From Flavobacteriales bacterium (lineage in GTDB: Bacteria > Bacteroidota > Bacteroidia > Flavobacteriales > Flavobacteriaceae), in contig JAMOVT010000020.1 in NCBI GenBank assembly GCA_027061855.1, positions 1 through 55,335 on the forward strand: a stretch of DNA of 55,335 nucleotides, read 5' to 3'. The notes beneath the pieces were generated by a model. That model was given only the letters and a program-made list of their open reading frames with translations. It was not told the origin of the DNA and did no database searches. The position numbers and the translations under genes were made by a program. Shown here in pieces: positions 1-36,057 of this stretch (position 1 is the stretch's first letter; each line of letters begins with the position of its first letter).

Positions 1-1892
1 TTGTCAAATTTTCCTTTAATACGTTTTTTCTGAGCCGCTTCCAGGTATTTTTGCAATTTATAGTCGCCTGTGTTTTTATCAAAAAAATCAACCAAACGGG
101 CATATTTAGTATCTTTGGAAACACCTATAATATCTCGAACTTTTTCATCTCCTCTTTCCAGATAAATAATCGGCACATACCACCATCCTTCGGGATAACT
201 GATCATTCCGGTTAATACCTGGTCGGCGGTGATTTCCTCACCGTTTTGCAAAGTATAAGTATCGTGTTTACTTAATTTACGAAGCAATTCCGAAGCATAT
301 GTATTGACAGGCTTCATTCGCCCACCGTAATCCTGAATCACCAAATGTCCGAAATTTTCCGCCTTTTCTTTCGGAGCTACGGTTTGTAAAACAATAGAAT
401 CGGTTTGTATTTCTTTTCTTTCCTGGGCATATAATCCAATGCTTATAAAAAGAAAAAACAAAACTATTTTTTCACGGGAAGCTCGTGTTTTCCGGATCAA
501 TTCTTTGAGTTTTGAAAAACGTGTTCCTTTCACAAAGAAGATCATCAAAAGTCCGAAATACAAAAGTCCGTATCCGATGTAAGTAATCCATGTTCCCCAG
601 AAATCGTGATTTACCGAAAGTTGGGTTTGTTCATATTGCGGAGTAATGGTATAAGAAGATTGATAAAAACGGTAGCCTTTGTATTCCAGCGGATGATTCA
701 TATAAATACGGGTGTCAAAACTTTTTTCCGGCGTAATGACCGTTACTTCACTCTCATATGATTTCGGCATGGTTGAACCGGGATATTTCTCCAATTTAAA
801 ATCGCGTAATTTAATCTGAAATGGCAAACGTTTATGCTCGGGACCGTAATTCAATCGAAAATTCAGTCCGTTTAAACGAAAAACCTTCGGGCTATCGGGC
901 GCATATTGCCCCCCGTATAAAGCGACGGTTTTTTCTTCTTCACCGGATTTTATATTGACCAATAACAAATCCAACGGATTCAAATCTTTATTTCCTGTTT
1001 GATAAGTAATTTTACCTTTTTGAGGAGCTTCCGGCACTACAAAAGAGGTATTTCCGAATTGATAAAGGGAACGCAAGGCAAAAGGCTGAATACTATCGGG
1101 AATCACCGGAAAACGTTTTTGATCCGACATACGCATATGCGTTCCTTCAAAAGGAGAAAGAATATACAAAGAATCGTTTTTTTCAAAAATATTAATTGTT
1201 TCATCTTGAATATTGTTAAAACTGATTCTTTTATCGTTTAAGATGGAAACTTGGCCGTCGCGTAAGAAAACATCTTTCCGGCCTTTGGGAGTGGAAACTA
1301 CAAATTTCAAATATTTTTTTCCTTTTGCATCAGGCACAAAAACTTCATGTGCATGGGGCACATATTCCAGAACTTTCACTTCAATGGGTTTCCCTTTAAA
1401 ATCGGTTTTTAAATGGTAATGATTATCCGTAAACAGCGGAATATCAATAGCCGACAGAGCCAAATTTTTCTGAATGGGCGGGCTAAATTGGTCTTTACCG
1501 TCATCTACATGGACTGTCAAATAGGTTTTTTCAGACATAAACGTATCGGAAGTTTCTCCCTCTTTAATCGGCATCATTCCTTCATAACTGATATATCTGG
1601 TAACGGCAGCTCCGATTAAAATGAGCAAAAAGGCAATATGAAATAAAAATACCGGCCATTTTTTCTTTTGATATAATTTGAAACGAATAATATTTCCAAT
1701 GAGATTGACGGCCAATAAAACCATAATCAGTTCAAACCACCAGGCATTGTAAACCAGTGTTCTTGCAGTGGGAGTGCCAAAATCATTTTCTATAAAGGTA
1801 GCTATGGCCATGGCCAATGCAAACAAGATAAACAATACTACCATGCTTTGCATCGAGATAAGCAAATGATATATTTTTTTTACTAATTTCAT
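1..1892 (-). CDS. ccsBA: Fused ResB-CcsA-type cytochrome c maturation protein, N-terminal ~630 residues (3' end off window)
   Basis: System II cytochrome c maturation protein that would bring haem across the inner membrane and attach it to apocytochromes c. The reading frame opens with ATG at 1892 and stays open to base 1, so the C-terminal CcsA part (including the tryptophan-rich haem site expected there) lies outside the window. Visible: three N-terminal membrane segments at about residues 8-30, 46-66 and 74-94 (ResB-like), a long periplasmic domain, two further hydrophobic segments near residues 428-452 and 475-490, then a conserved linker (FGHLVIQDYGGRMKPVNTYA at about residues 500-520). 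This layout is typical of the roughly 1000-residue fused protein of Flavobacteriia. It has its own promoter at 1913-1941. Presence implies c-type cytochromes, consistent with a respiratory organism. The family call is firm; the symbol is borrowed from fused homologues elsewhere. Confidence 0.85.
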   Translation of the reverse strand, partial: MKLVKKIYHLLISMQSMVVLFILFALAMAIATFIENDFGTPTARTLVYNAWWFELIMVLLAVNLIGNIIRFKLYQKKKWPVFLFHIAFLLILIGAAVTRYISYEGMMPIKEGETSDTFMSEKTYLTVHVDDGKDQFSPPIQKNLALSAIDIPLFTDNHYHLKTDFKGKPIEVKVLEYVPHAHEVFVPDAKGKKYLKFVVSTPKGRKDVFLRDGQVSILNDKRISFNNIQDETINIFEKNDSLYILSPFEGTHMRMSDQKRFPVIPDSIQPFALRSLYQFGNTSFVVPEAPQKGKITYQTGNKDLNPLDLLLVNIKSGEEEKTVALYGGQYAPDSPKVFRLNGLNFRLNYGPEHKRLPFQIKLRDFKLEKYPGSTMPKSYESEVTVITPEKSFDTRIYMNHPLEYKGYRFYQSSYTITPQYEQTQLSVNHDFWGTWITYIGYGLLYFGLLMIFFVKGTRFSKLKELIRKTRASREKIVLFFLFISIGLYAQERKEIQTDSIVLQTVAPKEKAENFGHLVIQDYGGRMKPVNTYASELLRKLSKHDTYTLQNGEEITADQVLTGMISYPEGWWYVPIIYLERGDEKVRDIIGVSKDTKYARLVDFFDKNTGDYKLQKYLEAAQKKRIKGKFD

Positions 1893-1912
1893 TACTTTTT
1901 TGTTTTATGATA

Positions 1913-1941
1913 CAAAAATAAATCTATTGTTAAAAAGCCAA
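1913..1941 (-). promoter_or_regulatory. Bacteroidota-type promoter of the ResB-CcsA gene
   Basis: Read on the minus strand, TTG (1941-1939) is followed after 18 nt by TATTTTTG (1920-1913), a full match to TTG-N(17-23)-TAnnTTTG. It lies 20 nt upstream of the ATG at 1892. Confidence 0.65.
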
Positions 1942-2078
1942 GCCTTTTTAACATAAATTTTTCTTATAAAAATTATGTAAAGATAAGATTTTTAATAAAG
2001 TTATCCCCCCTTGCCCAAGCACAGAAATAAGTTGGCAAAGAGGGATCAAAACAAACCGGAAAGCTTTAATCTAATTTT

Positions 2079-3254
2079 TTACATACCGGGTAAACGGAAC
2101 ATTTTTTTCTTTTTGGTATTTTTGTAATACCATCCCCAAGCTTTTTTCATCCAATGTCCCACTACCGGAAGCATAATCATCCATTCCTTTTTTTCAGTTC
2201 TGATAATAAAAGCGGCAGCATCTCCGCTATCCATTACACAAACGATATGGAGTTTTTCCCAATAAGATTTACGTTTATCGATATGTTTCATGGAGTTATT
2301 GAAATTATAGGTAGCCACATCTGCCATTACTTCGGCTACATGCCCTTGTTTTGCCGCCCAAGGATGATCGATTATTGCCGCTGCATCTCCTATGGCATAA
2401 ATATTTCTATGCCCTTCCACACGAACCAATTCGTTTATTTCGATAAAACCCGCTTCGTTTAAAGGCAATCCGCTTTCTTCTATGACTTTTAAGCCTTTTC
2501 CTCCCGAGATATATACGGTCAAATCGGAATTCAGTTTCGTTCCGTCTTTAAAAATAATTTCATCCGGCTTAAATTCCTTTATTCCTTTACCGAAATACGT
2601 ATTGATATGATAGCGTTCGTAGAATTTATCCAAACTGGCAAATGCTTTGGTTCCCATTTTTTTTCCGGGTGAAACGGACGGAGAAAAGAAATTGAGCTTT
2701 ACTTTGTCTCGCAAGCCTTTTTCTTTTAGAAACAAACTGATATTAAAAAGCAATTCAAATGCCGGTCCGCCACGCACCGCAGTAGCTGTGGGATCGGCAG
2801 GATTTCCACCGAAACCGATATTGATTACTCCCTCTCCTTTTGCAATCAAATTTTCTAATTTTTCTTTAATCAAAAGAGAATCCCCCGGTTTGCCACATAT
2901 ACTTAATGTATGCTCCAATCCGGGAACATAATGTTTTCCCATCCCCAAAGCGATAAAAAGATAATCATAAAGATGCGAAGATTTATCAGTCTCAATTTTT
3001 TGATTTTCAATGTCGATTTTATTTACCTTTTCGATTTTCAAATCAAATCCGTGGATTTTTGCCATTTCGTGCAAGTCCAATTTTGTATCTTCAAAATCTT
3101 GTTTCCCTACCGGAATCCATATGGATGTGGGGTAAATAAACATATATTCACGATCGGAAATCAATGTCACCGGATATCCGTATTTGCGTAATTTAATAGC
3201 GGCTTCCAGCCCGGCAAAGCCTCCTCCTAAAACCAAAATTTTCGGGTTTTTCAT
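2079..3254 (-). CDS. Sulfide:quinone oxidoreductase-like FAD flavoprotein
   Basis: FAD-dependent pyridine nucleotide-disulfide family protein most like sulfide:quinone oxidoreductases, which oxidise sulfide to sulfane sulfur and pass electrons to quinone at the membrane. The dinucleotide fold motif GGGFAGLEAA is near the N-terminus and the second FAD-contact motif YAIGDAA about three quarters along. Counting from the upstream in-frame TTG at 3278, two cysteines are at 128 and 347, near the first and third redox cysteines of classical enzymes. The middle cysteine is absent: that stretch reads GGNPADPTATAVRGGPAFE. The C-terminal region is basic and hydrophobic, as in membrane-bound SQRs. I chose ATG 3254 because the upstream TTG lies inside the -10-like box TAACTTTG (3283-3276). 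Family membership is confident; sulfide as the substrate is an inference, and flavocytochrome c-like or NDH-2-like enzymes are alternatives. Confidence 0.75.
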   Translation of the reverse strand: MKNPKILVLGGGFAGLEAAIKLRKYGYPVTLISDREYMFIYPTSIWIPVGKQDFEDTKLDLHEMAKIHGFDLKIEKVNKIDIENQKIETDKSSHLYDYLFIALGMGKHYVPGLEHTLSICGKPGDSLLIKEKLENLIAKGEGVINIGFGGNPADPTATAVRGGPAFELLFNISLFLKEKGLRDKVKLNFFSPSVSPGKKMGTKAFASLDKFYERYHINTYFGKGIKEFKPDEIIFKDGTKLNSDLTVYISGGKGLKVIEESGLPLNEAGFIEINELVRVEGHRNIYAIGDAAAIIDHPWAAKQGHVAEVMADVATYNFNNSMKHIDKRKSYWEKLHIVCVMDSGDAAAFIIRTEKKEWMIMLPVVGHWMKKAWGWYYKNTKKKKMFRLPGM

Positions 3255-3275
3255 AGTTTCTATTTTAACAGGCTG

Positions 3276-3283
3276 CAAAGTTA
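3276..3283 (-). promoter_or_regulatory. -7 box of the SQR-like gene
   Basis: The minus strand reads TAACTTTG, a match to TAnnTTTG, 22 nt upstream of ATG 3254. I find no good TTG at the expected distance, so only the -7 element is supported. Confidence 0.45.
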
Positions 3284-24547: not shown

Positions 24548-25726
24548 TTATCCGCAACCTCCGGATACTTCTTTTTTCTTACGTTTAACAATCGGTTTAG
24601 AAGGTTTTTTTGCTTTTTTGGGAGCTAAAGCGACAATCTTGGCGGAAGTACGTTTTTTTCCTTCCACTATCGGAAAGTCATTGATATAAGCATCTACGGG
24701 CGGAATCCATCCTTTTTCCTTCCATAAACTATGTATAAAACTTTGTGCTCCGAAAATTAAATTGTGTGCTTTATAACCCAACATATCCAGATAGGCAGTA
24801 GCATTTCCACCGGTATGACCCGTTTTACAATAGATTAATACAGGTTTATCCTTTGGAATGTCTGTTAAACGGCCGTCAAGGCTTAGATCTTTTCGAGGAG
24901 TATATTGAACGGATCCTTTGATGTGCGCAGCCAAATATTTTGGCTTGGGAATATAATAAATACTGTAATATTTTTTTATATCTTGTCTAATTTCAGGAAA
25001 GAACTCATCTGCTTTCAGCATAAATTGTTTTCTTTCTTGTTTTAACAATTGATGTGCGCGCTCACTAATTAAAATGCTAGGCAATTTTTTAGGCAAGTCA
25101 GGTAATTTTGAAAGATCGATTTTGTGTTCTTTCATTCCATGTTCCTTTTCAGAGTGAATAATTTCAGCTTCGGGGTCTTCACCTTTCACAACCATATCCG
25201 GATATCTGTCACCAAATCCTTTTTTCAGCGGATCCGAAAATTGCGAATTCCAAGCTGCCATACCAAAAAGCATAGCATAGGTATTATCATAGCCGGCAAA
25301 ACGGGTAATTCCTGTTACATACGAAGCCGTTTGTCCGGTATAGCAGACAATCACAACCTTGGGATAAGCAGCCGCTTTTTGAGTTGTTTTCAAGAAATCA
25401 AGCACTTTATCCTTGGGTACATTATAGGCACCGTTAATATGGCCTGCCTCATAGGCGTCCGGTTTGCGAACATCAATAATCAACCAATCATTGAGATGTT
25501 CCAATACAGCCGGAGCTTGTACAATGGGCGGAAAAGTTTGTGAATTGATATAGTTACCATGTTCATAATATATTTGTGCCAAATGTTTAGGCTCCGATTT
25601 TCTCAATAAATCTTCAATATTTGCTTCTTTTCCTACCGGTTCTCCTGTATAATGTTTAGTTTTACAGGAAGAGAAAAGCAATAGGAAACTTACGAGTATA
25701 TAAGTTAGATTTTTCATAATCATCAT
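24548..25726 (-). CDS. Two-domain rhodanese lipoprotein with SoxY-like C-terminal GGCG arm (last gene of the sulfur operon)
   Basis: Predicted envelope sulfurtransferase. Lipobox FSSC (lipidated C21; start may instead be the fourth codon, ATG 25717). The first rhodanese domain (about 68-160) has IDVRKPDAYEAGHINGA and active loop CYTGQT with C128. The second (about 235-345) has active loop CKTGHT with C300. A Lys/Ala/Pro-rich linker leads to the tail KPSKPIVKRKKKEVSGGCG (374-392). The protein has exactly four cysteines: lipid anchor, two catalytic sites, and C391 in the tail. The same 19-residue tail ends the two genes upstream. Terminal GGCG resembles the sulfur-carrying GGCGG of SoxY (known family property); a role as sulfane-sulfur donor/carrier for the adjacent polysulfide reductase-like complex or YedE importers is my inference. 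The body is paralogous to the tailless lipoprotein at 33564-34613. Confidence 0.82.
   Translation of the reverse strand: MMIMKNLTYILVSFLLLFSSCKTKHYTGEPVGKEANIEDLLRKSEPKHLAQIYYEHGNYINSQTFPPIVQAPAVLEHLNDWLIIDVRKPDAYEAGHINGAYNVPKDKVLDFLKTTQKAAAYPKVVIVCYTGQTASYVTGITRFAGYDNTYAMLFGMAAWNSQFSDPLKKGFGDRYPDMVVKGEDPEAEIIHSEKEHGMKEHKIDLSKLPDLPKKLPSILISERAHQLLKQERKQFMLKADEFFPEIRQDIKKYYSIYYIPKPKYLAAHIKGSVQYTPRKDLSLDGRLTDIPKDKPVLIYCKTGHTGGNATAYLDMLGYKAHNLIFGAQSFIHSLWKEKGWIPPVDAYINDFPIVEGKKRTSAKIVALAPKKAKKPSKPIVKRKKKEVSGGCG
24551..24607 (-). repeat. Tail repeat copy 1 (codes for KPSKPIVKRKKKEVSGGCG)
   Basis: 57-nt direct repeat, first of three at the 3' ends of consecutive genes. Compared with copies 2 and 3 it differs only at codon third positions (Val GTT, Ser TCT here). 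Similarity stops at the 5' end of this block. Confidence 0.95.
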
Positions 25727-25738
25727 TTTTTTAGTTTT

Positions 25739-26332
25739 TTATCCGCAACCTCCGGATACTTCTTTTTTCTTACGTTTTACAATCGGTTTGGAAGGTTTTG
25801 CTACTTTTACCGGCTTAGCAGAAGAAGATACACCTGCGCGGCTTTTTATTTCGTTTACCACTTGTTGAAAATCCACAAGGGGTTCTTCATCATTATATAA
25901 TCCGCTATAAAGCGAATAACCGTCTAGAATATGCTTTTTTAAATAATCATAGCCTCCCAATGCAACATAAAACTTCCCTTTGTTAAAATGTCCCGACATT
26001 AAAGCCATTAAGCGTGGACTTGAAGCGTCTTCTCCATATAATACCAAGACTTTGTCTTTGGGTATTTTTGAGAAATAATGCTCACTGAAAAAATTGGCCA
26101 TTGGTACATTGATTGCTCCGGGTAAATGTCCCATTGCATAAGCATGTGGAGTTCTAATATCAATAAAAGTCAATTCGTCATTTGGTCCGCCGTATAACAA
26201 ATCTGCCATTTGCTCTGCACTAAATGCATTGGCTTTACAATTTTGATTAATATCATTAATATCGATTCCTTTATTTAAGTTACAAGAACTTAAAAAGAGA
26301 CTCACACTAAGTATTATATATAATTTTTTCAT
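25739..26332 (-). CDS. Rhodanese-fold lipoprotein lacking the catalytic cysteine, with C-terminal GGCG arm
   Basis: A 197-residue lipoprotein: signal MKKLYIILSVSLFLSSC with lipidated C17. One rhodanese-like domain (about 36-140) is recognised by TFIDIRTPHAYAMGHLPGAINVP. The active loop is degenerate: aligned to its neighbours, tyrosine (Y99 in VLYGEDASS) replaces the persulfide cysteine, so it cannot work as a normal rhodanese. Other cysteines are C32 and the tail C196. It ends in the shared KPSKPIVKRKKKEVSGGCG. Gaps of 12 nt to the next gene and 21 nt to the previous one place it mid-operon. I infer a carrier or scaffold in which the tail cysteine, not the rhodanese loop, binds sulfur. Confidence 0.78.
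   Translation of the reverse strand: MKKLYIILSVSLFLSSCNLNKGIDINDINQNCKANAFSAEQMADLLYGGPNDELTFIDIRTPHAYAMGHLPGAINVPMANFFSEHYFSKIPKDKVLVLYGEDASSPRLMALMSGHFNKGKFYVALGGYDYLKKHILDGYSLYSGLYNDEEPLVDFQQVVNEIKSRAGVSSSAKPVKVAKPSKPIVKRKKKEVSGGCG
25742..25798 (-). repeat. Tail repeat copy 2 (codes for KPSKPIVKRKKKEVSGGCG)
   Basis: 57-nt direct repeat of 24551-24607 and 26357-26413. It differs from copy 1 at two synonymous sites and from copy 3 at three synonymous sites. Confidence 0.95.
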
Positions 26333-26353
26333 TTTTTTAAAATTTTATAATTT

Positions 26354-26983
26354 TTATCCACAACCTCCGGATACTTCTTTTTTCTTACGTTTTACAATTG
26401 GCTTGGAAGGTTTCGAAGCCTTTTTCGGAGCAGAATTTCCAATAATTTGTGCTCCGGTAAAATAAATCTGAGCTCCTTTTCTAAAAAGGTACTGCTTTTC
26501 CAGTTCAGCTGTCAGTTCTTCATCGGCCGGTTTAATGGGTTTCAAAATAGTTCGATACCACTCATTTAGTCCTCCTTTCATTACTTTATTTCCTTCATAG
26601 CCGTAACTCTTTAACATGAGCCATGCTTCATCAGCTGCACTGCTTCCATTTGAAAAAAGCACCGTAGTATATACATCTTGATCAAGGTAATCTCGATTAG
26701 CAGGATTCATCAAACTATCCGCCGGTATATTCATAGCCCCTTCCAGCGTGAATTTTTCATATTCTTGCGGGCTGCGAATATCAATCAGCAACAAACTGGG
26801 ATCTTTTTCCATAATCATTTTGGCCACTTCATCTGTTGAAATATATCGTCCTTCTTGATTTACCGCATATACAAGCTCTTCCGGGCCTTTTATATGTGGA
26901 TAAGGCAACATATCATTTAAGAAAATAGAAACAAAGCCTCCCAGAAGAAGAATTCCTATTATAATTTTATCTAGTTTTTTCAT
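26354..26983 (-). CDS. Membrane-anchored rhodanese-fold protein without catalytic cysteine; sole cysteine is in the C-terminal GGCG arm
   Basis: A 209-residue protein. An N-terminal hydrophobic helix (IIIGILLLGGFVSIFL, about 7-22) has no lipobox, so it is probably an uncleaved anchor. One rhodanese-like domain (about 47-147) is marked by LLIDIRSPQEYEKFTLEGAMNIP. The active loop position is phenylalanine (F110 in VLFSNGSSAAD), so the fold is catalytically dead as a rhodanese. The protein ends in the shared tail KPSKPIVKRKKKEVSGGCG (191-209), and C208 is its only cysteine. That makes the tail the only possible sulfur-binding thiol. First of the three tailed genes in transcription order, 20 nt after a YedE half-transporter gene. 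Confidence 0.8.
   Translation of the reverse strand: MKKLDKIIIGILLLGGFVSIFLNDMLPYPHIKGPEELVYAVNQEGRYISTDEVAKMIMEKDPSLLLIDIRSPQEYEKFTLEGAMNIPADSLMNPANRDYLDQDVYTTVLFSNGSSAADEAWLMLKSYGYEGNKVMKGGLNEWYRTILKPIKPADEELTAELEKQYLFRKGAQIYFTGAQIIGNSAPKKASKPSKPIVKRKKKEVSGGCG
26357..26413 (-). repeat. Tail repeat copy 3 (codes for KPSKPIVKRKKKEVSGGCG)
   Basis: 57-nt direct repeat; codes for the same 19 residues with synonymous changes in the Cys (TGT), Pro (CCA) and Lys (AAG) codons. Confidence 0.95.
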
Positions 26984-27003: not shown

Positions 27004-27627
27004 TTATAGTCCCAATTCATCAATATCCTCTTTGGATAATTTATTTTTCCAAGCATCTTGCCATTTTTGAAAAACATAAAAGCTAGCTACAGACAACAAC
27101 ACAAAAAGAAAAATAAAAATACCTTCTCTTATTCCTAACCATTGAGCAATGTCAACTTTTCCCATTTTTCCCATTCCACGGAGTTTTTCCCAAAGGCTTT
27201 CATAAGTAAAAATAAATCCGAAGATCCCAAGCATAACACCTCCAATGAAAACCCAAGCATCTATTTTTCCAGTGGCGGCGGCAGATAAACTTGTTCCTGG
27301 ACAAAAGCCTCCAATGATAAAACCCAAACCCATTATAGCTCCTCCTATTAGTGTTGCTATCCAAAAAGTTTTGGGATAGAAAGTTAAAGTTACATCGATA
27401 ATTCCCATATTATGCATGATAAATAAGCCTAAGAGAGCTGTCACAGCAGCGGTAAAAAAGACTTTAATTACAGTAGCATCGTAGCCGTAAAAAACACCGG
27501 CTAATTTTCTTGTATTTGTAAATCCGGCAGCTTCCAATAGAAAACCGAAACCGATTCCTATCAGAAATCCGATTAATAGATTATATTCCGGATTAAGTAG
27601 TCCTTGTGGATATAGTGGTCCAATCAT
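27004..27627 (-). CDS. YeeE/YedE-family sulfur transport half-protein (GGFCPGTS motif)
   Basis: A 207-residue inner membrane protein with about five or six membrane segments. The motif GGFCPGTS (C109) is the conserved cysteine motif of the YeeE/YedE (TsuA-like) family, whose studied members import thiosulfate through a line of cysteines. It is about half the size of the single-chain transporters and is paired with the neighbouring half-protein (7 nt gap). The C-terminal segment after about residue 165 is one extra helix and a charged tail. Substrate here is probably thiosulfate or another sulfane-sulfur compound, by analogy. Confidence 0.82.
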   Translation of the reverse strand: MIGPLYPQGLLNPEYNLLIGFLIGIGFGFLLEAAGFTNTRKLAGVFYGYDATVIKVFFTAAVTALLGLFIMHNMGIIDVTLTFYPKTFWIATLIGGAIMGLGFIIGGFCPGTSLSAAATGKIDAWVFIGGVMLGIFGFIFTYESLWEKLRGMGKMGKVDIAQWLGIREGIFIFLFVLLSVASFYVFQKWQDAWKNKLSKEDIDELGL

Positions 27628-27634
27628 AATAGTA

Positions 27635-28168
27635 TTATTTTGAAGTTTTTAACCAAATGTTCTTAAATATATAAGCGAATATAAATCCGAAGCCAAAAAT
27701 AGCTACCAAACCTATATAGCCTGATAAGGAATTAACCGCTATACCGGATAAAACCAAACCGGAGGTACAACCTCTACCGAGTTGCGTTCCGACTCCCCAT
27801 AAAATACCACCTATCAAAGCGAGATATAAGCGTTTTTTTGTAGTTAGATGCGGGGCTTTTCCAATGCTCCATTTCAATCGGCCAAAAATGGCAGCCGAAA
27901 GAATTGCACCAAAAATAACTCCAAGCAATTCATAAACCAACCAAGTATGGGTCGGGTTATGACCTTCTCCTACATGAGAAGATACAAAAGGGTTAGATTG
28001 TGCATAATCCGGAGCAATTGCATTTAAAGTTCCGAAAGCAATATCCCTATATCCCCCGCTTGATCCTAAACCTTCACCGGAAAAATAATAAGCAAGAATA
28101 ATGAGTATTCCCATAAGAAAACCTGCCAAATAGGGATTCATATATTTATTTCTTTTATTTTCTTTCAT
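27635..28168 (-). CDS. YeeE/YedE-family sulfur transport half-protein (GRGCTSG motif)
   Basis: A 177-residue inner membrane protein with about four or five helices. Its only cysteine, C134, sits in QLGRGCTSGLVLSG, the other conserved cysteine motif of YeeE/YedE proteins. Together with the next gene it supplies both halves of the channel on separate chains. ATG 28168 was chosen; an upstream frame to 28228 would run into the NrfD-type gene, and ATG 28141 is an alternative. Twenty-eight nt separate it from that gene's stop. Confidence 0.8.
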   Translation of the reverse strand: MKENKRNKYMNPYLAGFLMGILIILAYYFSGEGLGSSGGYRDIAFGTLNAIAPDYAQSNPFVSSHVGEGHNPTHTWLVYELLGVIFGAILSAAIFGRLKWSIGKAPHLTTKKRLYLALIGGILWGVGTQLGRGCTSGLVLSGIAVNSLSGYIGLVAIFGFGFIFAYIFKNIWLKTSK

Positions 28169-28196
28169 TTTATATGTTTTTTTATTTACTATTTTA

Positions 28197-29192
28197 TTAT
28201 AGTGGGTATTCTGACATTTGTCCGGCATAAACCATAATCATACGGAAAAGAAAACCTCCAATTAATACTAGAATAGCCGGTAATGCAGGAGGAATATGAA
28301 ATCCTTTTAACTCCATTGCCTCTAAAATAAAAGGGAGAACCAATCCAAAGCCAACAAAAAAGACCCAAAAGATAACCGTAAATTCCCCTCCTAAAAATAA
28401 ATGGGCAGCTTGCTGAAAAGCTTCCGGTCCTGCTTGCATTCCCATTATCATATGAATGATAAAGAAAAGTTCTGTAGCAATCAATGCCATATCTATCACA
28501 GACATCCGTGTCCTTTCTTTTTTGTTATTACTGAGCCACATTACAAATGCAGAACCTGTGGACACTCCCGATGTCAAAAATAAAGGACCTAATATGGAAT
28601 TATTCCATAAAGGATGTGCATTAAAAGCCGATAATAAAATTCCTGTATAGATTCCTAAAATTATAGATAAAAAAAGAAGAATATAAGCAAATTTTTTGCG
28701 ATGTTTCCTAAAAAACAAAACAATAAAGCGAAAAATTTTACATTTATGTTCCAAGGTTCGTATAAATTTTGTAATCCAATCTAATCTTTTCCAACCCCGT
28801 TCATGTAAATATTCTTCAATGTCATCAATATAACTCAAAGGCCATAATAAAGAAAATATACTTACTCCTACTAAAGTCCAAGCACCCCAGGACATCGGAG
28901 ACTCAATCCGGAACGTAGTAAACAATTGCCATACATATAATTTATGATGAAGATCATAAACTAATAAAAGTAGTCCAATCATTATAAATATAAAAGTAAA
29001 AAGCGGAGCTATTTTTACTGTAAAAGGCATTTCATCCTCTTTTCCTTTAATATAATATATTGTAGCAAAGAGGAGAATTCCCGCAGCAAGTCCTCCTAAA
29101 AATAAATAGGTGGCAATAGGGAATCCCCAAATATGCACGTGAGGATATAGGCCATGAATTTCTCTTGCGGTTACTAATAATTTTTCTTCCAT
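28197..29192 (-). CDS. NrfD/PsrC-type polytopic membrane subunit of the molybdoenzyme complex
   Basis: A 331-residue integral membrane protein with about eight or nine hydrophobic helices, belonging to the NrfD family that anchors PsrA/PhsA-type enzymes and exchanges electrons with the menaquinone pool. The first helix region has HIWGFPIATYLFLGGLAAGI, the usual NrfD start. A cytoplasmic basic loop (HKCKIFRFIVLFFRKHRKKF) lies at mid-protein. No haem or iron-sulfur motif is expected in this family. It directly follows the ferredoxin gene (6 nt). Confidence 0.85.
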   Translation of the reverse strand: MEEKLLVTAREIHGLYPHVHIWGFPIATYLFLGGLAAGILLFATIYYIKGKEDEMPFTVKIAPLFTFIFIMIGLLLLVYDLHHKLYVWQLFTTFRIESPMSWGAWTLVGVSIFSLLWPLSYIDDIEEYLHERGWKRLDWITKFIRTLEHKCKIFRFIVLFFRKHRKKFAYILLFLSIILGIYTGILLSAFNAHPLWNNSILGPLFLTSGVSTGSAFVMWLSNNKKERTRMSVIDMALIATELFFIIHMIMGMQAGPEAFQQAAHLFLGGEFTVIFWVFFVGFGLVLPFILEAMELKGFHIPPALPAILVLIGGFLFRMIMVYAGQMSEYPL

Positions 29193-29198
29193 AATAAA

Positions 29199-29732
29199 CT
29201 ATTTTAAATAAAAGATTTGAGGATTTGTACCAGCCTCGGGAATTAATGTATAATTTTCACGTGTTCTAATTAATTTAGATATTTCACTATCCGGATCATC
29301 CAAATCTCCAAAATGCATACAAGTTGTAGGACATACTGAAACACAGGCAGGATCCAAACCGTCCGCGACTCTGTGATCACAAAAAGTACATTTATCTACA
29401 TACCCTTCCGGATGAAAATATCTTGCATCATAAGGACAGGCTTCAATACAAGCTCCACAACCGATACATTCATCGTGAGTTACTTTCACAATTCCTCCTT
29501 CAATTATATGACTGGCTCCTGTGGGGCAAGTTCGTACACATGGAGTATCGTCACAGTGATTACACCTTTGTGACTCAAAATGCATATATAAATCAGGGTA
29601 TTCTCCGCGTGCTATTTCTACTATCCAATCACGGGAATATCCGTGAGGAACATTATTTTCTGTTTGACACGCTACAACACAGTCTGCGCAGCCAACACAT
29701 TTGTTGACTTCTATAGCCATTGCATATCTCAT
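29199..29732 (-). CDS. Four-cluster [4Fe-4S] ferredoxin subunit (PsrB/PhsB/NrfC-like)
   Basis: A 177-residue electron-transfer subunit. Four cysteine groups supply four [4Fe-4S] clusters: CVGCADCVVACQ (from C12), CNHCDDTPCVRTCP, CIGCGACIEACP and CTFCDHRVADGLDPACVSVCP. No signal peptide, so it is probably exported together with the Tat-signal catalytic subunit. Its ATG overlaps the catalytic subunit's stop by 4 nt (ATGA), a sign of translational coupling. It links the quinone-side subunit to the molybdenum site. Confidence 0.92.
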   Translation of the reverse strand: MRYAMAIEVNKCVGCADCVVACQTENNVPHGYSRDWIVEIARGEYPDLYMHFESQRCNHCDDTPCVRTCPTGASHIIEGGIVKVTHDECIGCGACIEACPYDARYFHPEGYVDKCTFCDHRVADGLDPACVSVCPTTCMHFGDLDDPDSEISKLIRTRENYTLIPEAGTNPQIFYLK

Positions 29733-31999
29733 GATTTCGCTTCTTTTTTATGTGGATTTTCAGTTAATATGGTAACAAAATTGTTACGTAGTCCCGTACC
29801 ACCGGTAACAGGATCGATTTCAATATTATATATCATCTCGGAATCAAGAATTCCTCTTCCGTAGGCTCGATGCATTTCAAGTTTTTTGCCGTCAACCCAT
29901 ATGCGTCCTTTATTTCCAAAACCATGTGGCATAAAAACCGAGTCATGCCTGATTCTTTCGGTAACACGCACTTTAATAGGGAATGAACTGACCTTACCTT
30001 TTGGATTTTTAAGCCAAACTTCTTGTCCGTTTTCCAATCCGTAAATTCGTGCTACCTTGGGGTGCACCCATAAATGAGGATCGTGTTTTAAGTCGAATAA
30101 GTTCGGGTTATTAAGAGTTCTTCCAAAGGTGTGCATCGGTAAACGTCCATAAATCAAACGTAAAAAGCCCGGAGGATTTTCACCATGATCTTTATAAACG
30201 GGTAATGGATCATATCCCCATTCTTCGAAGTCTGTGGAGTACAATTCAATTTTTCCGGTATTGGTATTAAACCAATATTCTTCACCCGGTTTGAGATACA
30301 TCGGGGTTTTTCTCGGGAAATATTTTACTCCCACTTTTTTCATTTCTTCCATAGAGGATCCTACTTGTTTTAATTGCCAATCCAATACTTCTTCAAAATC
30401 TTCCCACTCATAGTAATCATGTAATCCCAAACGGATTCCTATTTCTCTGGCAATCCACCAACCCGGTTTAGTATCATATTTCGGTTCAACCGCAGGATAT
30501 CTCAAAGCAATATTAGGCTGTCTATGATGTGCAGTTCTTAAATGATCTAACCGTTCCAAGTAAGTAGCCTCGGGTAATACTACATCCGCATACCCGGTAA
30601 TTTCTGCAGGCATTGTATCTACCACGACAACAAAATCCTGGTTATCCAAAGCTCTTCGTATTGTATCTTGGCTAGGAATAGATTGTAAGGGATTGGTAGC
30701 TGTTATAAACATCCCTTTAATTTTATAAGGCCCTTTATATTCCGGCAATGCATGATCGATCAATTCATTTGTAATCCCCATAATTGCGAGTTTATGCTTA
30801 TCTCTCGAAATATCTTTCCAAGTCCATTTCGGTTTAGGGAAAGGCGGATGGGCTTCTTTGGGTAATTTGACCTTTTCGGGGAAGTAAAAACCTCCTTCTC
30901 TACCCCACGAGCCTAAAATGGCATTCAAAATAGCGATGGCTCTTGTTCGTTGTGTATCGTCTCCATACCAAGCCGTATGTCTTCCGGGGTGAATAATCAC
31001 TCGAGGGGAAGCTCCACCCATTAAGCGGGCTGTTTCATAAATATCTCCTGCGGGAATAGTAGTAATACTTTCAGCCCATTCCGGAGTATATTTTTGCACA
31101 TGGTCTTTAAGTTGTTCAAAACCATAGGTATATTGTTCCACATAGTCTTTATCATACAAACCTTCATTGATAATTACATTCATCCAGGCTAATAGTAAAG
31201 CTAAATCCGTAGAAGGTTTAATGGGAAGCCATTTTGTCGAATGTGCCGCCATGGTAGAAAAACGAGGATCAACGGTGATGATGGTTCCTCCTTTATCAAT
31301 CAATGCGGATACTTCTTGAACATGTCCATTATGCATATTTTCACCAATATGGTTTCCTATCAATACCAAACAGTCGGTATTACGGACATCGGTAGGCTCT
31401 GGTGAAGCTAACCCTGCTCCATAAGTGGCAATAAAACCGGCTTCACGTGTAATCAAACACTGTGCGCCGGCAGGCTCACCCATAGTATCCGAACCCCAAG
31501 CTTTAAATAGGTGTTCAAAATGAGGACCGGTTTTTCCATGAAATAATAAAGCCATGCTCTCTTTGCCATATTTTTTTTCAATTTCTTTCATTTTTGTGGC
31601 TACGAGATCCAAAGCTTCATCCCATTCAGCTTCACGAAATTCAGATTTACCATCTTCTCTTTTAACCCGAATGAGTGGTTTCTTTAATCGATCTTCATCA
31701 TAGTACATTCCCAATCCGCCGGTGCCCCGAGGGCAAAGACGACCGTTACTATGTGGGTCGATGTCATTTCCTATAATTTTTTTAATGTTTCCTTCTTTGT
31801 CAAGATAGGTCCATCCTGCACAATTCCAGAAACAAACTTCACAAACCGTAGGAACTTTTTTCGCTTCATTTTCTAATAAAGGTTTTTCTTCGTCCGAAAA
31901 AATAGTTTTCCAGATACTTGTCAACGGGGGTGTCATTACCATTCCGGCTGAGGCAGTCCCCGATATTTTTATAAAATCTCTCCGATTTAATTTACTCAT
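29729..31999 (-). CDS. Tat-exported molybdopterin oxidoreductase catalytic subunit, PsrA/PhsA-like
   Basis: A 756-residue member of the DMSO reductase family, close in length to polysulfide (PsrA) and thiosulfate (PhsA) reductases. Twin-arginine signal NRRDFIKIS (5-13). The N-terminal [4Fe-4S] motif is C53-x2-C56-x3-C60 then C89 (RLCPRG). C181 in AGAQCLITREAG is the candidate molybdenum ligand. The C-terminal half holds the molybdopterin dinucleotide domain (MPHGFGNKG). It is the first gene of a leftward operon with PsrB- and PsrC-like partners, two YedE halves and three tailed rhodanese proteins, which supports polysulfide, sulfur or thiosulfate as substrate. Arsenate or tetrathionate reductases are the alternatives, though these are usually longer. 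It has its own promoter and a Crp/Fnr-like palindrome. Confidence 0.85.
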   Translation of the reverse strand: MSKLNRRDFIKISGTASAGMVMTPPLTSIWKTIFSDEEKPLLENEAKKVPTVCEVCFWNCAGWTYLDKEGNIKKIIGNDIDPHSNGRLCPRGTGGLGMYYDEDRLKKPLIRVKREDGKSEFREAEWDEALDLVATKMKEIEKKYGKESMALLFHGKTGPHFEHLFKAWGSDTMGEPAGAQCLITREAGFIATYGAGLASPEPTDVRNTDCLVLIGNHIGENMHNGHVQEVSALIDKGGTIITVDPRFSTMAAHSTKWLPIKPSTDLALLLAWMNVIINEGLYDKDYVEQYTYGFEQLKDHVQKYTPEWAESITTIPAGDIYETARLMGGASPRVIIHPGRHTAWYGDDTQRTRAIAILNAILGSWGREGGFYFPEKVKLPKEAHPPFPKPKWTWKDISRDKHKLAIMGITNELIDHALPEYKGPYKIKGMFITATNPLQSIPSQDTIRRALDNQDFVVVVDTMPAEITGYADVVLPEATYLERLDHLRTAHHRQPNIALRYPAVEPKYDTKPGWWIAREIGIRLGLHDYYEWEDFEEVLDWQLKQVGSSMEEMKKVGVKYFPRKTPMYLKPGEEYWFNTNTGKIELYSTDFEEWGYDPLPVYKDHGENPPGFLRLIYGRLPMHTFGRTLNNPNLFDLKHDPHLWVHPKVARIYGLENGQEVWLKNPKGKVSSFPIKVRVTERIRHDSVFMPHGFGNKGRIWVDGKKLEMHRAYGRGILDSEMIYNIEIDPVTGGTGLRNNFVTILTENPHKKEAKS

Positions 32000-32174: not shown

Positions 32175-33536
32175 TTACTTTTGAGAAGAATCAAAAAGTT
32201 TAGGTTGCATAATCAGCATACTATATATGAAGTAATTTGTTCCTCCATTTGCAATACCCTTCATCGTTAAAAAATCATCTGTTGGTATTCCATAGGAGAA
32301 TCCATTCATAATTTTCATAAAGGAATTGATTTTTCGGGTATAAATAAAATCAAGATTATTTGTTAACACCGTACCTTTGTCAAAATAAACCGTATTTCCA
32401 TTTATTACTTTTTTTGCATTATTCGGAATGCGTACGTTGCTAAAACCAAATTCAAGGATATCTTTTTTGGAAGCTTTGTATTTAAGTTTTAAACTGATAT
32501 TCATCAATCCGGCATTTAAAGTACTTTTAGGTATCACAAACCAATCCAGATATCCTTCATAATAAGGATGACGGGCACCATATAATAAATCATATGTATG
32601 GTCGGTATTTATATAATCGGGATCGTTATTTTTTGCATCATTTCCGGACAAATATTCTAAACCTCCGGATAATTCAAGTCTTTTATTCATTGTTCGATAT
32701 CCCAATAAACCGGTAATCATATGAGCGGATTTGTCTTGTCCCAATATATTTTTCCCGTTTTGAATAAATAAATTTCCTTTAAAAAACATTCCGTCTTCTG
32801 CTTTTTTTGTAGCATTATAATTAAAATGGACACCTTCTGTTCCGGTAACATAAATGATATTTGCCGTACCTTCTTTTTGATAACCTGCTGCAATGGCAGT
32901 AAAAGAAGTATAAAACTTCGGATTAATTTGTTTTTTAATATAAATAAATTCCTGGGTGATCATCGGATTTACTGTTCCGAAATAATCTGTTCCGTCTGAA
33001 TAATTATTCCCCAATAAGTCTTCTTTTGTACTATTATAAGAGGCGCTTAAATCTATTCTCCATCCCGTAGCCTTATTTATATTGCTAAACAACAGGGCAT
33101 CATAAGTCTGTCCTCTATCCCACCAGTTTCTCCAAGAGATATGACGTTGATCATCATACTTCATTTCTTGTCTTCCTATTTTCAATTTTGAATTAGGCGT
33201 GAGATGCCAACAAAACCAAGCTTCATAAATATCCAAGGTATTAAAAGATTTTCCTTGCACACCCGTGGGATTTACTATATTTTCATCACCCCAAACGCGT
33301 ACATCCTGTATGGATATCAAACTACTGAATTTGTTTGTTTTATCCATATATCTCAAATTTAAACGGGTACGTTGTCCAATATGAAAAGCAGGATCAACAT
33401 TTTCGGGGACAGGTTTTTTATACCCGTGTAATAATTGTGCTCTTACTCTGTACTGTGCATCGATTTTGAATTGCGCATAGGAATTTACAGAGAAAATAAT
33501 ACATAAAATACTGATTGCAATCTTATAATGTTTCAT
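32175..33536 (-). CDS. Outer membrane porin, alginate-export-like beta barrel
   Basis: A 453-residue outer membrane protein. Signal peptide ends at VNSYAQ (about residue 21). The mature protein is a run of amphipathic strands with aromatic girdles (for example QYRVRAQLLHGYKKPV, TRLNLRYMDKTNKFSSLISI, LKIGRQEMKYDDQRHISWRN), typical of the alginate-export/anion porin family. It sits between the tailless rhodanese lipoprotein (27 nt) and the molybdoenzyme operon, so I infer that it admits the sulfur compound or another anion to the periplasm. Substrate preference is not visible. Confidence 0.7.
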   Translation of the reverse strand: MKHYKIAISILCIIFSVNSYAQFKIDAQYRVRAQLLHGYKKPVPENVDPAFHIGQRTRLNLRYMDKTNKFSSLISIQDVRVWGDENIVNPTGVQGKSFNTLDIYEAWFCWHLTPNSKLKIGRQEMKYDDQRHISWRNWWDRGQTYDALLFSNINKATGWRIDLSASYNSTKEDLLGNNYSDGTDYFGTVNPMITQEFIYIKKQINPKFYTSFTAIAAGYQKEGTANIIYVTGTEGVHFNYNATKKAEDGMFFKGNLFIQNGKNILGQDKSAHMITGLLGYRTMNKRLELSGGLEYLSGNDAKNNDPDYINTDHTYDLLYGARHPYYEGYLDWFVIPKSTLNAGLMNISLKLKYKASKKDILEFGFSNVRIPNNAKKVINGNTVYFDKGTVLTNNLDFIYTRKINSFMKIMNGFSYGIPTDDFLTMKGIANGGTNYFIYSMLIMQPKLFDSSQK

Positions 33537-33563
33537 AATTTTGTGTTTTGTTGTTTTATTTTT

Positions 33564-34613
33564 TTAATGAACTAATTCGGCTTTTTCTACCGGATAATTA
33601 TGGATGGCTTTTTTTGTAAACGGATGCCATTTCTTTTCCACTAATTTTTTATGCATAAAGCTGTTTGCTCCATATTTCAGAACACGTGCATCATATCCAA
33701 GTGTATTTAAAAAAGAAGAAACAAAACTGGCATGTTGACCCGTATAACAATACACTACAATAGGTTTGTCTGTTGGTAAAGTGTTCAAATAGGTTTTGGT
33801 GGATAAGGATTTTTTTGGGGTATATTGGACAGCTCCCGGGATATGTCCTTCTAAATATTGCTCTTTAGGCCAATAATTAATGATATAATATTTATCCGGA
33901 TTGGCAAATACTTCATCCGCAGAAACCAAACGTGATTTAAAAGGATCATCCAAGGCTCTTTGGGCTTGTATCAGAAGAATTTGTTTCGGATCTTTTTCTC
34001 CCGTATATATAACCGGATACTCTCCCGGTGCTCTTTTGGGATTTTCTTTGGTTTCCAACTTATCCAGATATTTGTCCGAAATGTTTTTTAACCAAGCTTT
34101 TTTAGCATCTTTCAAATCCCATGAACTCATACCGAATTTCATTGCATACACATTATCATATCCCAGAAGATTCATGATTCCGGCCCCATAGCTTGCCGAT
34201 TGTCCCGAATAACAAACCAAGGCTATTTTATCATAATCTTGCGGATTAATTTGATTTTGAAAATAATTAATCAAATCATAAAATTTAACGTTTTTAGCTC
34301 CTTTGATATGGCCTTCCTCATAATCGGCCGGCTTTCTCAAATCGAGTACTAAAAAGGCCGGATTATCCAAATTTTCTTTCACTTTGTCTGCAGAAATCAT
34401 TGCAGGAACATATGGACTATTGATAAAATCTCCGTTTTGTTCGAGATAGGAAACCAATAAAGCAAATTCATCCGGTTTTTGTTCTTCTTGGACTTTTTGA
34501 ACTTCATTTTGAGTGGTTTCTTTTTTTTGTTTGTCAGGATTGTTTCTACAACTTATAAATAAGAAGTTGAGTGATAATAGGAATAAAAAATAAATTTTTA
34601 AGGAGGTTCTCAT
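33564..34613 (-). CDS. Two-domain rhodanese lipoprotein without the GGCG arm (first gene of the sulfur locus)
   Basis: A 349-residue lipoprotein: lipobox FISC with lipidated C22, then a Gln/Glu/Lys-rich spacer. Rhodanese domain 1 (about 70-165) has LDLRKPADYEEGHIKGAKNV and active loop CYSGQS (C134); domain 2 (about 225-325) has EGHIPGAVQYTPKKSL and active loop CYTGQH (C289). These are its only cysteines. It aligns end to end with the protein at 24548-25726 (both have INS..P in the N-terminal region, RKP..YE.GHI.GA.NV, and QYTP), but stops at YPVEKAELVH instead of carrying the KPSKPIV...GGCG tail. A Sud-like polysulfide-binding and transfer role in the periplasm is the best guess: Sud of Wolinella is a periplasmic rhodanese that serves PsrA. 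Possible Crp/Fnr-type sites lie upstream. Confidence 0.82.
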   Translation of the reverse strand: MRTSLKIYFLFLLSLNFLFISCRNNPDKQKKETTQNEVQKVQEEQKPDEFALLVSYLEQNGDFINSPYVPAMISADKVKENLDNPAFLVLDLRKPADYEEGHIKGAKNVKFYDLINYFQNQINPQDYDKIALVCYSGQSASYGAGIMNLLGYDNVYAMKFGMSSWDLKDAKKAWLKNISDKYLDKLETKENPKRAPGEYPVIYTGEKDPKQILLIQAQRALDDPFKSRLVSADEVFANPDKYYIINYWPKEQYLEGHIPGAVQYTPKKSLSTKTYLNTLPTDKPIVVYCYTGQHASFVSSFLNTLGYDARVLKYGANSFMHKKLVEKKWHPFTKKAIHNYPVEKAELVH

Positions 34614-34830: not shown

Positions 34831-36057
34831 TTAAATCATCTGCTTATCAAAATAACCCACTTCTTGAAGCGTTTGTTTAATTTTTTGGTAAGTTTTTTCA
34901 ATATCAAAGTCCAAACCGACTGACATTCTGATCAATCCTTCTGACAATCCCATGGCTTCTTGTTCTTCGGGGGGAACTTCACTGGAAGTTCCTTTTCCGG
35001 GAGCATTGAATAAGGTCTTGTAAAAACCCAGGCTTACGGCCAAATAACCCACTCCTTTTTCTTGCAATTTTTCCATAAAACGAGTAGCCTTTTCACCCGT
35101 TTGCAAGTCGAGAGTAATCATTCCGCCATAGCCGAATTCGGGATTCATCATTCGGGTGAATAATTCATGTTGAGGATGAGACGCTAAGCCGGGATATTTT
35201 ACTTTCACTCCGTCTTTTTCCAACTGTTCTGCAAGGTATTGGGCATTCTGACTATGCTTTAGCATACGAATGGGAAGTGTCCGCAAGTTTTTTAATATTT
35301 GTGCGGAACGCAAACTATCCATAACAGGGCCCAAAAGCATACTTGATCCGTCATTTACATTTTTCAAATCATTGATAAATTCATTTGTACTGCAAATTAC
35401 TCCGCCAACAGTATCATTCATCCCGTTTATAAATTTAGTCAAACTATGGATTACTACATCAGCCCCGCTATTAGCAGGTGTGAAAATTAACGGAGTAAAA
35501 GTATTGTCCACTACCAATTTTATATTATGTTTTTTTGCAATCCTGGAAAGTCCTTCAATATCTGCCACTTCAAGCAAGGGGTTACTCAATACCTCTGCAT
35601 AAATAAGTTTTGTGTTGGGTTGTATAGCTGCTTCTACTTTCTCTAAATCAGTTATATCCACAAAGGAAGTATTTATATTGAATTTAGGTAAATAATTTTT
35701 CAAAAAAGCATAGGTTCCACCATAAATAGTGCGTGCGGAAACTATATGATCTCCGGCACCGGCCAATTGTAATATAACAGGGGTAATTGCCCCCATTCCG
35801 GAGGCGGCTACATTGGCACTTTCGGTATTTTCCATTTGAGATAAAGCCAAAGCCAAATAATGATTACTGGGACTCGTATGTCGTGAATAAAGATAACACC
35901 CGTCTGTATTTCCTTCAAAAGTATCCAACATGGTTTTAGCTTTCAAAAAGGTATAGGTAGCCGAATCGGAGATAGAGGGATTGACCCCTCCGAATTCTCC
36001 AAAAAATTGCACATCTTGTATGGCTTGTGCCGGATTGAATTTATTTTTTTTATCCAT
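34831..36057 (-). CDS. Cys/Met-metabolism PLP enzyme (cystathionine gamma-synthase/lyase or methionine gamma-lyase family)
   Basis: A 408-residue fold-type I PLP enzyme of the trans-sulfuration family. The PLP lysine is K208 in SLTKFINGMND; ASGMGAI (85-91) and TIYGGTYAF (110-118) are cofactor and substrate contacts; YLYSRHTSPSN is the family N-terminal motif. True methionine gamma-lyases carry a cysteine in the segment corresponding to YGGTYAF; here it is glycine, so I do not assign that activity. It could make H2S, cystathionine or homocysteine. It lies just upstream of the sulfur locus on the same strand, but a strong terminator separates them. Confidence 0.75.
   Translation of the reverse strand: MDKKNKFNPAQAIQDVQFFGEFGGVNPSISDSATYTFLKAKTMLDTFEGNTDGCYLYSRHTSPSNHYLALALSQMENTESANVAASGMGAITPVILQLAGAGDHIVSARTIYGGTYAFLKNYLPKFNINTSFVDITDLEKVEAAIQPNTKLIYAEVLSNPLLEVADIEGLSRIAKKHNIKLVVDNTFTPLIFTPANSGADVVIHSLTKFINGMNDTVGGVICSTNEFINDLKNVNDGSSMLLGPVMDSLRSAQILKNLRTLPIRMLKHSQNAQYLAEQLEKDGVKVKYPGLASHPQHELFTRMMNPEFGYGGMITLDLQTGEKATRFMEKLQEKGVGYLAVSLGFYKTLFNAPGKGTSSEVPPEEQEAMGLSEGLIRMSVGLDFDIEKTYQKIKQTLQEVGYFDKQMI

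Follow-up and report, generated by a model that had tools for sequence, protein, structure and literature searches.

Introduction

The reductase Psr receives polysulfide sulfur from the rhodanese Sud, and in DsrC/TusE, which are cytoplasmic and of a different fold, the penultimate cysteine of a C-terminal arm carries sulfur. For SoxY, the accessible part of PMC6067878 calls the sulfur-binding function of the GGCGG cysteine well established. In the accessible part of the SoxT paper (PMC11582611), passage of SoxY-borne sulfur along the cysteines of SoxT is called conceivable and the entry of periplasm-made sulfane sulfur into the cytoplasm poorly understood, and an excerpt of PMC10812762 reports import of zero-valent sulfur by YedE1E2. 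Here we analyze a 55,335-nucleotide stretch from a Flavobacteriales bacterium (assembly GCA_027061855.1, contig JAMOVT010000020.1, positions 1 to 55,335; hereafter the window), in which three adjoining genes encode rhodanese-fold proteins ending in one and the same cysteine-tipped arm. The names RhdA, RhdB and RhdC, as well as RhdT for a related protein, are labels coined in this analysis. We hold it reasonably probable that RhdA and its paralogues are membrane-tethered periplasmic swinging-arm carriers, moving sulfane sulfur between enzymes and a YeeE-type channel.

Results

Three adjoining genes share one C-terminal arm

The last 19 residues of RhdA, RhdB and RhdC are identical (KPSKPIVKRKKKEVSGGCG) and are followed by a TAA stop in three adjoining minus-strand open reading frames (ORFs), which confirms the original prediction of a tail shared by consecutive genes of 209, 197 and 392 codons. 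RhdA (26354..26983, 209 residues) comprises an N-terminal hydrophobic anchor, one pseudo-rhodanese domain and the arm (26357..26413, Cys codon 26360-26362). RhdB (25739..26332, 197 residues) is a lipoprotein-type protein with a single pseudo-rhodanese domain and the arm (25742..25798, Cys codon 25745-25747), and RhdC (24548..25726, 392 residues) is a lipoprotein-type tandem rhodanese with two pocket cysteines and the arm (24551..24607, Cys codon 24554-24556). Differing N-termini, anchors and domain counts had also been claimed and were indeed found: the RhdA anchor is without a lipobox, RhdB and RhdC have a lipobox-like SSC, and stretches over the cut-off of the Pfam Rhodanese family (PF00581) number one in RhdA, one in RhdB and two in RhdC. 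Within the 2.04 Mb assembly, all 3 matches to the pattern GGCG followed by a TRR codon (stop or Trp) lie at this cluster, and the control gave 0. We ruled out chance or artefact as the source of the tail because this pattern is confined to the cluster and because the tail recurs in relatives retrieved with a profile that does not contain it.

Conservation of the terminal Gly-Cys across Bacteroidota

All searches except one of plasmids were confined to the phylum of the window. The same operon and its tails were found in two genomes of the same genus (in L035, one of the two, the contig stops within RhdC) and in one of another family of the order, and a contig scan with patterns that exclude the tail yielded 26 loci from Flavobacteriales, Bacteroidales and others, on which the naming of the phylum as Bacteroidota is based. 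An alignment of 22 RhdA at 25-69% identity to that of the window (A4, drawn from 29 RhdA found after the channel gene YedE1, with L089, which ends KGC, and six others omitted) has 12 invariant columns, three of them the tail Gly-Gly-Cys, and a linker that is unalignable. Gly195 and Cys196 are invariant in 20 RhdB-like sequences, which were picked from the tailed ones and do not include the tail-less RhdB of L088 (A5). With a tail-including profile, 16 of 395 genomes were matched within the class at 1e-8; six of these, that of the window included, scored better than 1e-40.

The profile built without the tail (A6) was searched in 395 genomes of the phylum and matched 88 of them at 1e-10. From the 94 places listed, 71 were read (70 loci and one place within L090), the 23 weakest (2.3e-12 to 9.6e-11) being omitted. 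Pooled with the earlier loci, these gave 104 distinct proteins with an A6 score of at least 60 bits, a cut chosen with tails visible, of which 103 are complete and one runs off its contig. Cysteine is the last or penultimate residue in 102 of the 103, counted as sequences and not as independent events, several Flavobacteriales loci being closely related; the exception is the RhdB of L088. Among 568 other closed ORFs of at least 150 residues from the same loci, a background that includes non-genes, two have a cysteine at either position. Absence of the tail from all orthologues had been named as the observation that would speak against the original prediction, and the tail-less profile indicates that this is clearly not the case.

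The 102 endings are GGC (52), EGC (19), GGCG (16), GGCE (3), GGCS (3), MGC (3) and six singletons. The GGCG ending initially described is present in the window, but it belongs to a broader set of endings that have Gly-Cys alone nearly constant. The preceding linker is basic and unconserved; the 20-residue stretch ahead of the final three residues averages 6.5 K/R against 1.2 D/E. A control set comprised 25 distinct rhodanese ORFs from four genomes (a locus was available for 30 of the 35 matches); eight have a cysteine in the last five residues, namely seven proteins of this family and an unrelated protein ending NYVCPTTL. Judged from these sequences, the arm is not peculiar to the organism of the window.

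Pocket cysteine and arm cysteine

RhdA has one cysteine in the whole protein, C208 in the tail, and its alignment with canonical rhodaneses places Ser in the catalytic-cysteine column. The cysteines of RhdB are those of the lipobox, residue 32 and the tail; its pocket loop (LYGEDASS) has none, and its close relatives at L060 and L064 have Gly in the catalytic column. RhdC retains both pocket cysteines (CYTGQT and CKTGHT) in addition to that of the tail. RhdA and RhdB thus appear to have a rhodanese fold without a rhodanese active site, so that the label rhodanese, given originally to all three, stands for the fold of each and for the active site of RhdC, and falls for the pocket of the other two. 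Since two of the three carriers in the window are pseudo-rhodaneses, the arm cysteine would there replace, not supplement, the pocket cysteine; since the tail occurs both where the fold has a pocket cysteine and where it has none, it can be regarded as modular.

The same relation was tabulated for 126 proteins with a score of at least 45, a set from which L080 (open) and L205 (truncated) were dropped and from which window RhdB, scoring under 45, is absent. A tail without a pocket cysteine was found in 110, a pocket cysteine alone in nine, both in five and neither in two (Fisher P 6e-9, kinship uncorrected). In the 112 proteins that lack the pocket cysteine, window RhdA included, its alignment column is occupied by Ser (52), Gly (31), Ala (23), Asp (3), His (2) or Tyr (1). 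Of the 69 family proteins shorter than 300 residues, 48 have no cysteine other than that of the arm.

An AlphaFold2 model of RhdA has a rhodanese fold with an N-terminal helix, 111 of 209 residues reaching a predicted local distance difference test (pLDDT) score of at least 90, and the best Protein Data Bank (PDB) matches shown for it are rhodanese-domain structures. The tail, with a pLDDT of about 44-53, is disordered in the model. PDB entries 1qxn, which we take to be Sud, and 2jtq were among 20 profile matches.

Gene neighborhood in the window

The five genes next upstream of RhdA lie on the same minus strand. Two encode the halves of a split YeeE/YedE-type sulfur channel with the Pfam domain Sulf_transp: YedE1 (27004..27627), with a conserved cysteine in GGFCPGTS, and YedE2 (27635..28228), with one in GRGCTSG. 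Because the YedE2 ORF overlaps the gene beyond it, its true start is probably later than that of the ORF. That gene encodes an NrfD/PsrC-like membrane subunit (28197..29192); further upstream come genes for a PsrB-like 4Fe-4S subunit (29199..29732), both subunits being assigned by Pfam, and a PsrA/PhsA-like molybdopterin subunit (29729..31999), which has an RR motif near its N-terminus and whose best NCBIfam match, PhsA, is below cut-off. Upstream of psrA, positions 32175-34613 hold a porin-like gene (Pfam Alginate_exp) and RhdT (33564..34613, minus strand), a tail-less tandem rhodanese lipoprotein resembling RhdC; a small membrane protein gene takes their place in the same-genus loci L034 and L035. 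A Cys/Met-metabolism pyridoxal phosphate enzyme is encoded upstream of the cluster (34831-36057), and a similar gene lies nearby in L034 and L035, so a link to sulfur supply may exist. The window begins (3-3278) with genes for a ResB-family protein and for a pyridine nucleotide-disulfide oxidoreductase that bears a weak resemblance to type III sulfide:quinone reductase.

Neighbors of the arm proteins in relatives

The scan covered 55 loci; an arm protein with a score of at least 60 is present in 53, and 44 of these extend at least 4.5 kb upstream. A script assigned the 44 to YedE1 adjacent with PsrA (32), a YedE1-RhdA fusion with octaheme tetrathionate reductase (Otr; 7), a fusion with PsrA (1), PsrA without YedE1 (2), YedE1 only (1, L082) and neither (1, L084). 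For L134, scored as lacking YedE1, an overlapping YedE1 ORF does exist, leaving L124 as the YedE1-less locus. With L134 counted, YedE1 is adjacent or fused in 42 of the 44 loci (fused in 8 of the 42), PsrA is present in 35 and Otr in 7; three of the seven Otr were scanned, all far above the TIGR04315 cut-off. Six further loci were added: five were chosen because they end in the divergent MGC or FQC, and one, ending GGC, served for comparison. The latter is of the Psr type, and the five have YedE2-YedE1-RhdA but gave no match to Psr or Otr. In the three of these five whose front gene was scanned (those of L218 and L221 were outside the scanned set), it encodes a tandem or triple rhodanese with 3-mercaptopyruvate sulfurtransferase as best match, below cut-off. 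The arms of this group, L218-L222, which end MGC or FQC, are the most drifted. The channel cysteine is present in 48 of 48 aligned YedE1 and 47 of 47 YedE2 homologues. Since YedE2-YedE1-arm protein is found with PsrABC, with Otr or with a sulfurtransferase, this trio is the recurrent unit and the front enzyme is exchangeable. The YedE pair, fusions included, is the more constant partner of the arm; PsrABC is common but exchangeable.

A plasmid search with the fusion protein as query matched four records, in the channel half alone. A different operon at L092 (4415-9703) combines a full-length YeeE-type channel with two rhodaneses ending GGCGG (GGGCGG and SGGCGG), the first of which retains its pocket cysteine, and a tandem rhodanese ending SYTCE. 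An exact GGCGG ending was seen solely in these two rhodaneses; a search of 295 genomes with the L092 GGCGG rhodanese matched 4 others, and no frame read there has the tail, that of L214 being open-ended.

These neighborhoods bear directly on an alternative in which the arm is a sulfur carrier serving PsrA or Otr, much as Sud serves Psr, and YedE merely adjoins. The reductases do share the cluster at the 35 and 7 loci given above, and the stretch fetched for L124 combines Psr with arm proteins but has no YedE. In Caldithrix abyssi, moreover, genes of the Psr/Phs kind have been reported near two single-domain sulfurtransferase genes, in an account whose accessible part does not mention a tail. 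Nevertheless, YedE2/YedE1 is common to all three architectures, the fusion partner of the arm protein is YedE1 and never PsrA or Otr, and the existence of the Otr and sulfurtransferase architectures weakens a role for Psr only; we therefore consider this alternative unlikely.

Likeness of arms within a locus

Between the RhdA and the RhdB of a locus, identity over the 13 residues that precede GGC is 0.727, against 0.284 with the loci shuffled (0/20000 permutations), in 11 loci, one per cluster, that we chose from 22 tabulated. For the protein bodies, the same permutation gave no significantly higher agreement within a locus (P 0.084). The tail DNA of the window is 0.90-0.96 identical among the three genes and 0.73-0.85 identical to orthologues from seven other genomes; for several relatives, identity within a locus is no higher than to orthologues. 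Either recurrent copying or selection for a partner that the arms have in common would explain their likeness.

A shared binding site would also predict arms that are near-identical within a locus, as they often are, and the tail cysteine could accordingly be structural, with the tails of RhdA, RhdB and RhdC disulfide-linked, or docking through a common basic tag, in a membrane complex. We regard this as distinctly improbable. A single arm protein is present in the fetched stretch at the 8 fusion loci, at L123, L127 and L129-L131 and at others, so linking several tails is not the conserved role, and it is Gly-Cys that is nearly constant and the remainder of the tag that varies.

Predicted location and remaining alternatives

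In RhdA, lysines lie N-terminal to the anchor; lipoboxes are present in RhdB and RhdC, and an RR motif in the PsrA-like subunit. Arm and enzyme should therefore both face the periplasm. The anchor and the lipoboxes also argue against a polybasic stretch and terminal cysteine that act as a membrane anchor or sorting signal, whether lipidated or binding phospholipid head groups. The dominance of basic residues in the linker would suit such a signal, but RhdA already has a hydrophobic anchor, RhdB and RhdC each have a lipobox, and a membrane domain is present in the fusions, so that a second anchor looks redundant on the carriers examined. We know of no processing enzyme that fits such a tail, and the proposal is highly unlikely.

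A role of the arm as redox or metal site, reducing or sensing polysulfide and carrying nothing between partners, is similarly unlikely. Thioredoxin reductase has a flexible C-terminal arm, and a last or penultimate cysteine next to Gly on a flexible arm would fit. Yet in the 48 proteins in which it is the sole cysteine an intramolecular dithiol is unavailable, and no reductase domain was found by the Pfam scan. Finally, a recently copied peptide without function, as the near-identical tail DNA of the window might suggest, is scarcely credible given that the cysteine is retained in 102 of 103 proteins phylum-wide on a linker that cannot be aligned.

Discussion

In the swinging-arm carrier that we favor, a periplasmic enzyme (PsrABC, Otr or an active sulfurtransferase, e.g. 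RhdC) would load sulfane sulfur onto the arm cysteine as a persulfide or polysulfide; the arm would swing to the mouth of the channel and hand the sulfur to the conserved YedE cysteines for import, while the dead rhodanese domain would serve as a docking scaffold. Run in reverse, the arm would feed the enzyme. We infer both the sulfur on the arm cysteine and the direction of flow, import being favored because characterized relatives import. With near-identical arms in one operon, RhdA, RhdB and RhdC could share donor and acceptor. More broadly, we lean slightly towards a Bacteroidota-wide set of peptide-arm carriers on dead rhodaneses, in which the reactive cysteine, lost from the pocket, would now stand at the end of a basic arm that loads a split channel, as a Sox-independent plug-in import route with interchangeable molybdenum, multiheme or sulfurtransferase enzymes.

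Several observations weigh against this carrier. PsrA is frequent, at 35 of 44 loci, and at L124 (7-5157) PsrABC is directly followed by RhdA and RhdB with identical arms and no YedE match in 12 kb. At L084 (9917-10510) a lone RhdB-like lipoprotein ending KKRKKKAVEGGC stands in a locus without a Psr, YedE or Otr match. The RhdB of L088 and the weak match L210 have neither pocket cysteine nor tail, and the arm proteins of L120 and L173 (both ending KREGC) retain the pocket-column cysteine as well. Agreement between arms over 16 residues is low in L087 (0.25), L091 (0.38) and L086 (0.44). The tailed L206 and L209 fall below the 60-bit cut together with generic rhodaneses, the model of the YedE1-RhdA fusion is poor over the channel, and a SoxY search matched 0 of 10 carrier genomes, the control set being equally silent.

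Taken together, the original prediction survives in part. The modular basic arm is upheld in that its cysteine is the most constant position and its linker is basic, modelled as disordered and unconserved; what changes is that in two of the three proteins, the pseudo-rhodaneses RhdA and RhdB, the arm cysteine takes the place of that of the pocket. The operon does contain the PsrABC-like reductase and the YedE importers, but elsewhere the former is exchanged and the latter, fusions included, are the steadier partner.

A carrier arm fused to half a channel would make the question of how sulfur passes from periplasm to cytoplasm directly testable, since the putative donor and acceptor lie in one chain. 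The absence of a pocket cysteine together with a terminal Gly-Cys also provides a sequence handle for sulfur metabolism in Bacteroidota that the label rhodanese has masked. No account of such a tail was found in open-access PubMed Central titles and abstracts, a set outside which most subscription papers lie, and no channel-fused arm protein turned up in the open-access literature there.

Two known kinds of C-terminal element were rejected. The thiocarboxylate carriers ThiS/MoaD have a beta-grasp fold and a C-terminal GG; RhdA has a rhodanese fold and, since the first Gly varies (19 of 102 end EGC) and the cysteine is constant, it is GC and not GG that is kept. The C-terminal sorting domain of the type IX secretion system is folded and about 80 residues long, whereas the tail has 19 residues and is modelled as disordered, and no such domain appeared in the Pfam and NCBIfam scans.

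Membership of the Rhodanese superfamily is indicated by PF00581 over cut-off in all three proteins and by the fold modelled for RhdA. With Sud and PspE-type rhodaneses they share this fold, and in the window they adjoin a Psr-type reductase; the pocket-loop cysteine of those active enzymes is present in RhdC, whereas RhdA and RhdB lack it and have a cysteine on the arm instead. The neighboring channel halves resemble PmpA/PmpB, YedE1E2, TsuA/YeeE and SoxT, as far as the accessible descriptions go, in sharing the Sulf_transp domain and one conserved cysteine each, probably the cysteines described for PmpB and PmpA (PMC11582611). The partner described for TsuA in the accessible part of that paper is different, being the cytoplasmic TusA-like TsuB/YeeD and not an arm protein. 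Identity with SoxY was ruled out, as no SoxY domain (PF13501) was found among the Pfam matches of the window proteins at E 0.001. The likeness to SoxY lies in a predicted periplasmic carrier with a Gly-flanked C-terminal cysteine and in the YeeE-type channel, which the accessible text of PMC11582611 proposes as a SoxY partner; the arm proteins differ in their rhodanese fold, in their basic linker, in ending mostly at the cysteine or one residue after it and in being tethered or fused to the channel. By analogy, we infer that the arm protein would work like SoxY, on an unrelated fold.

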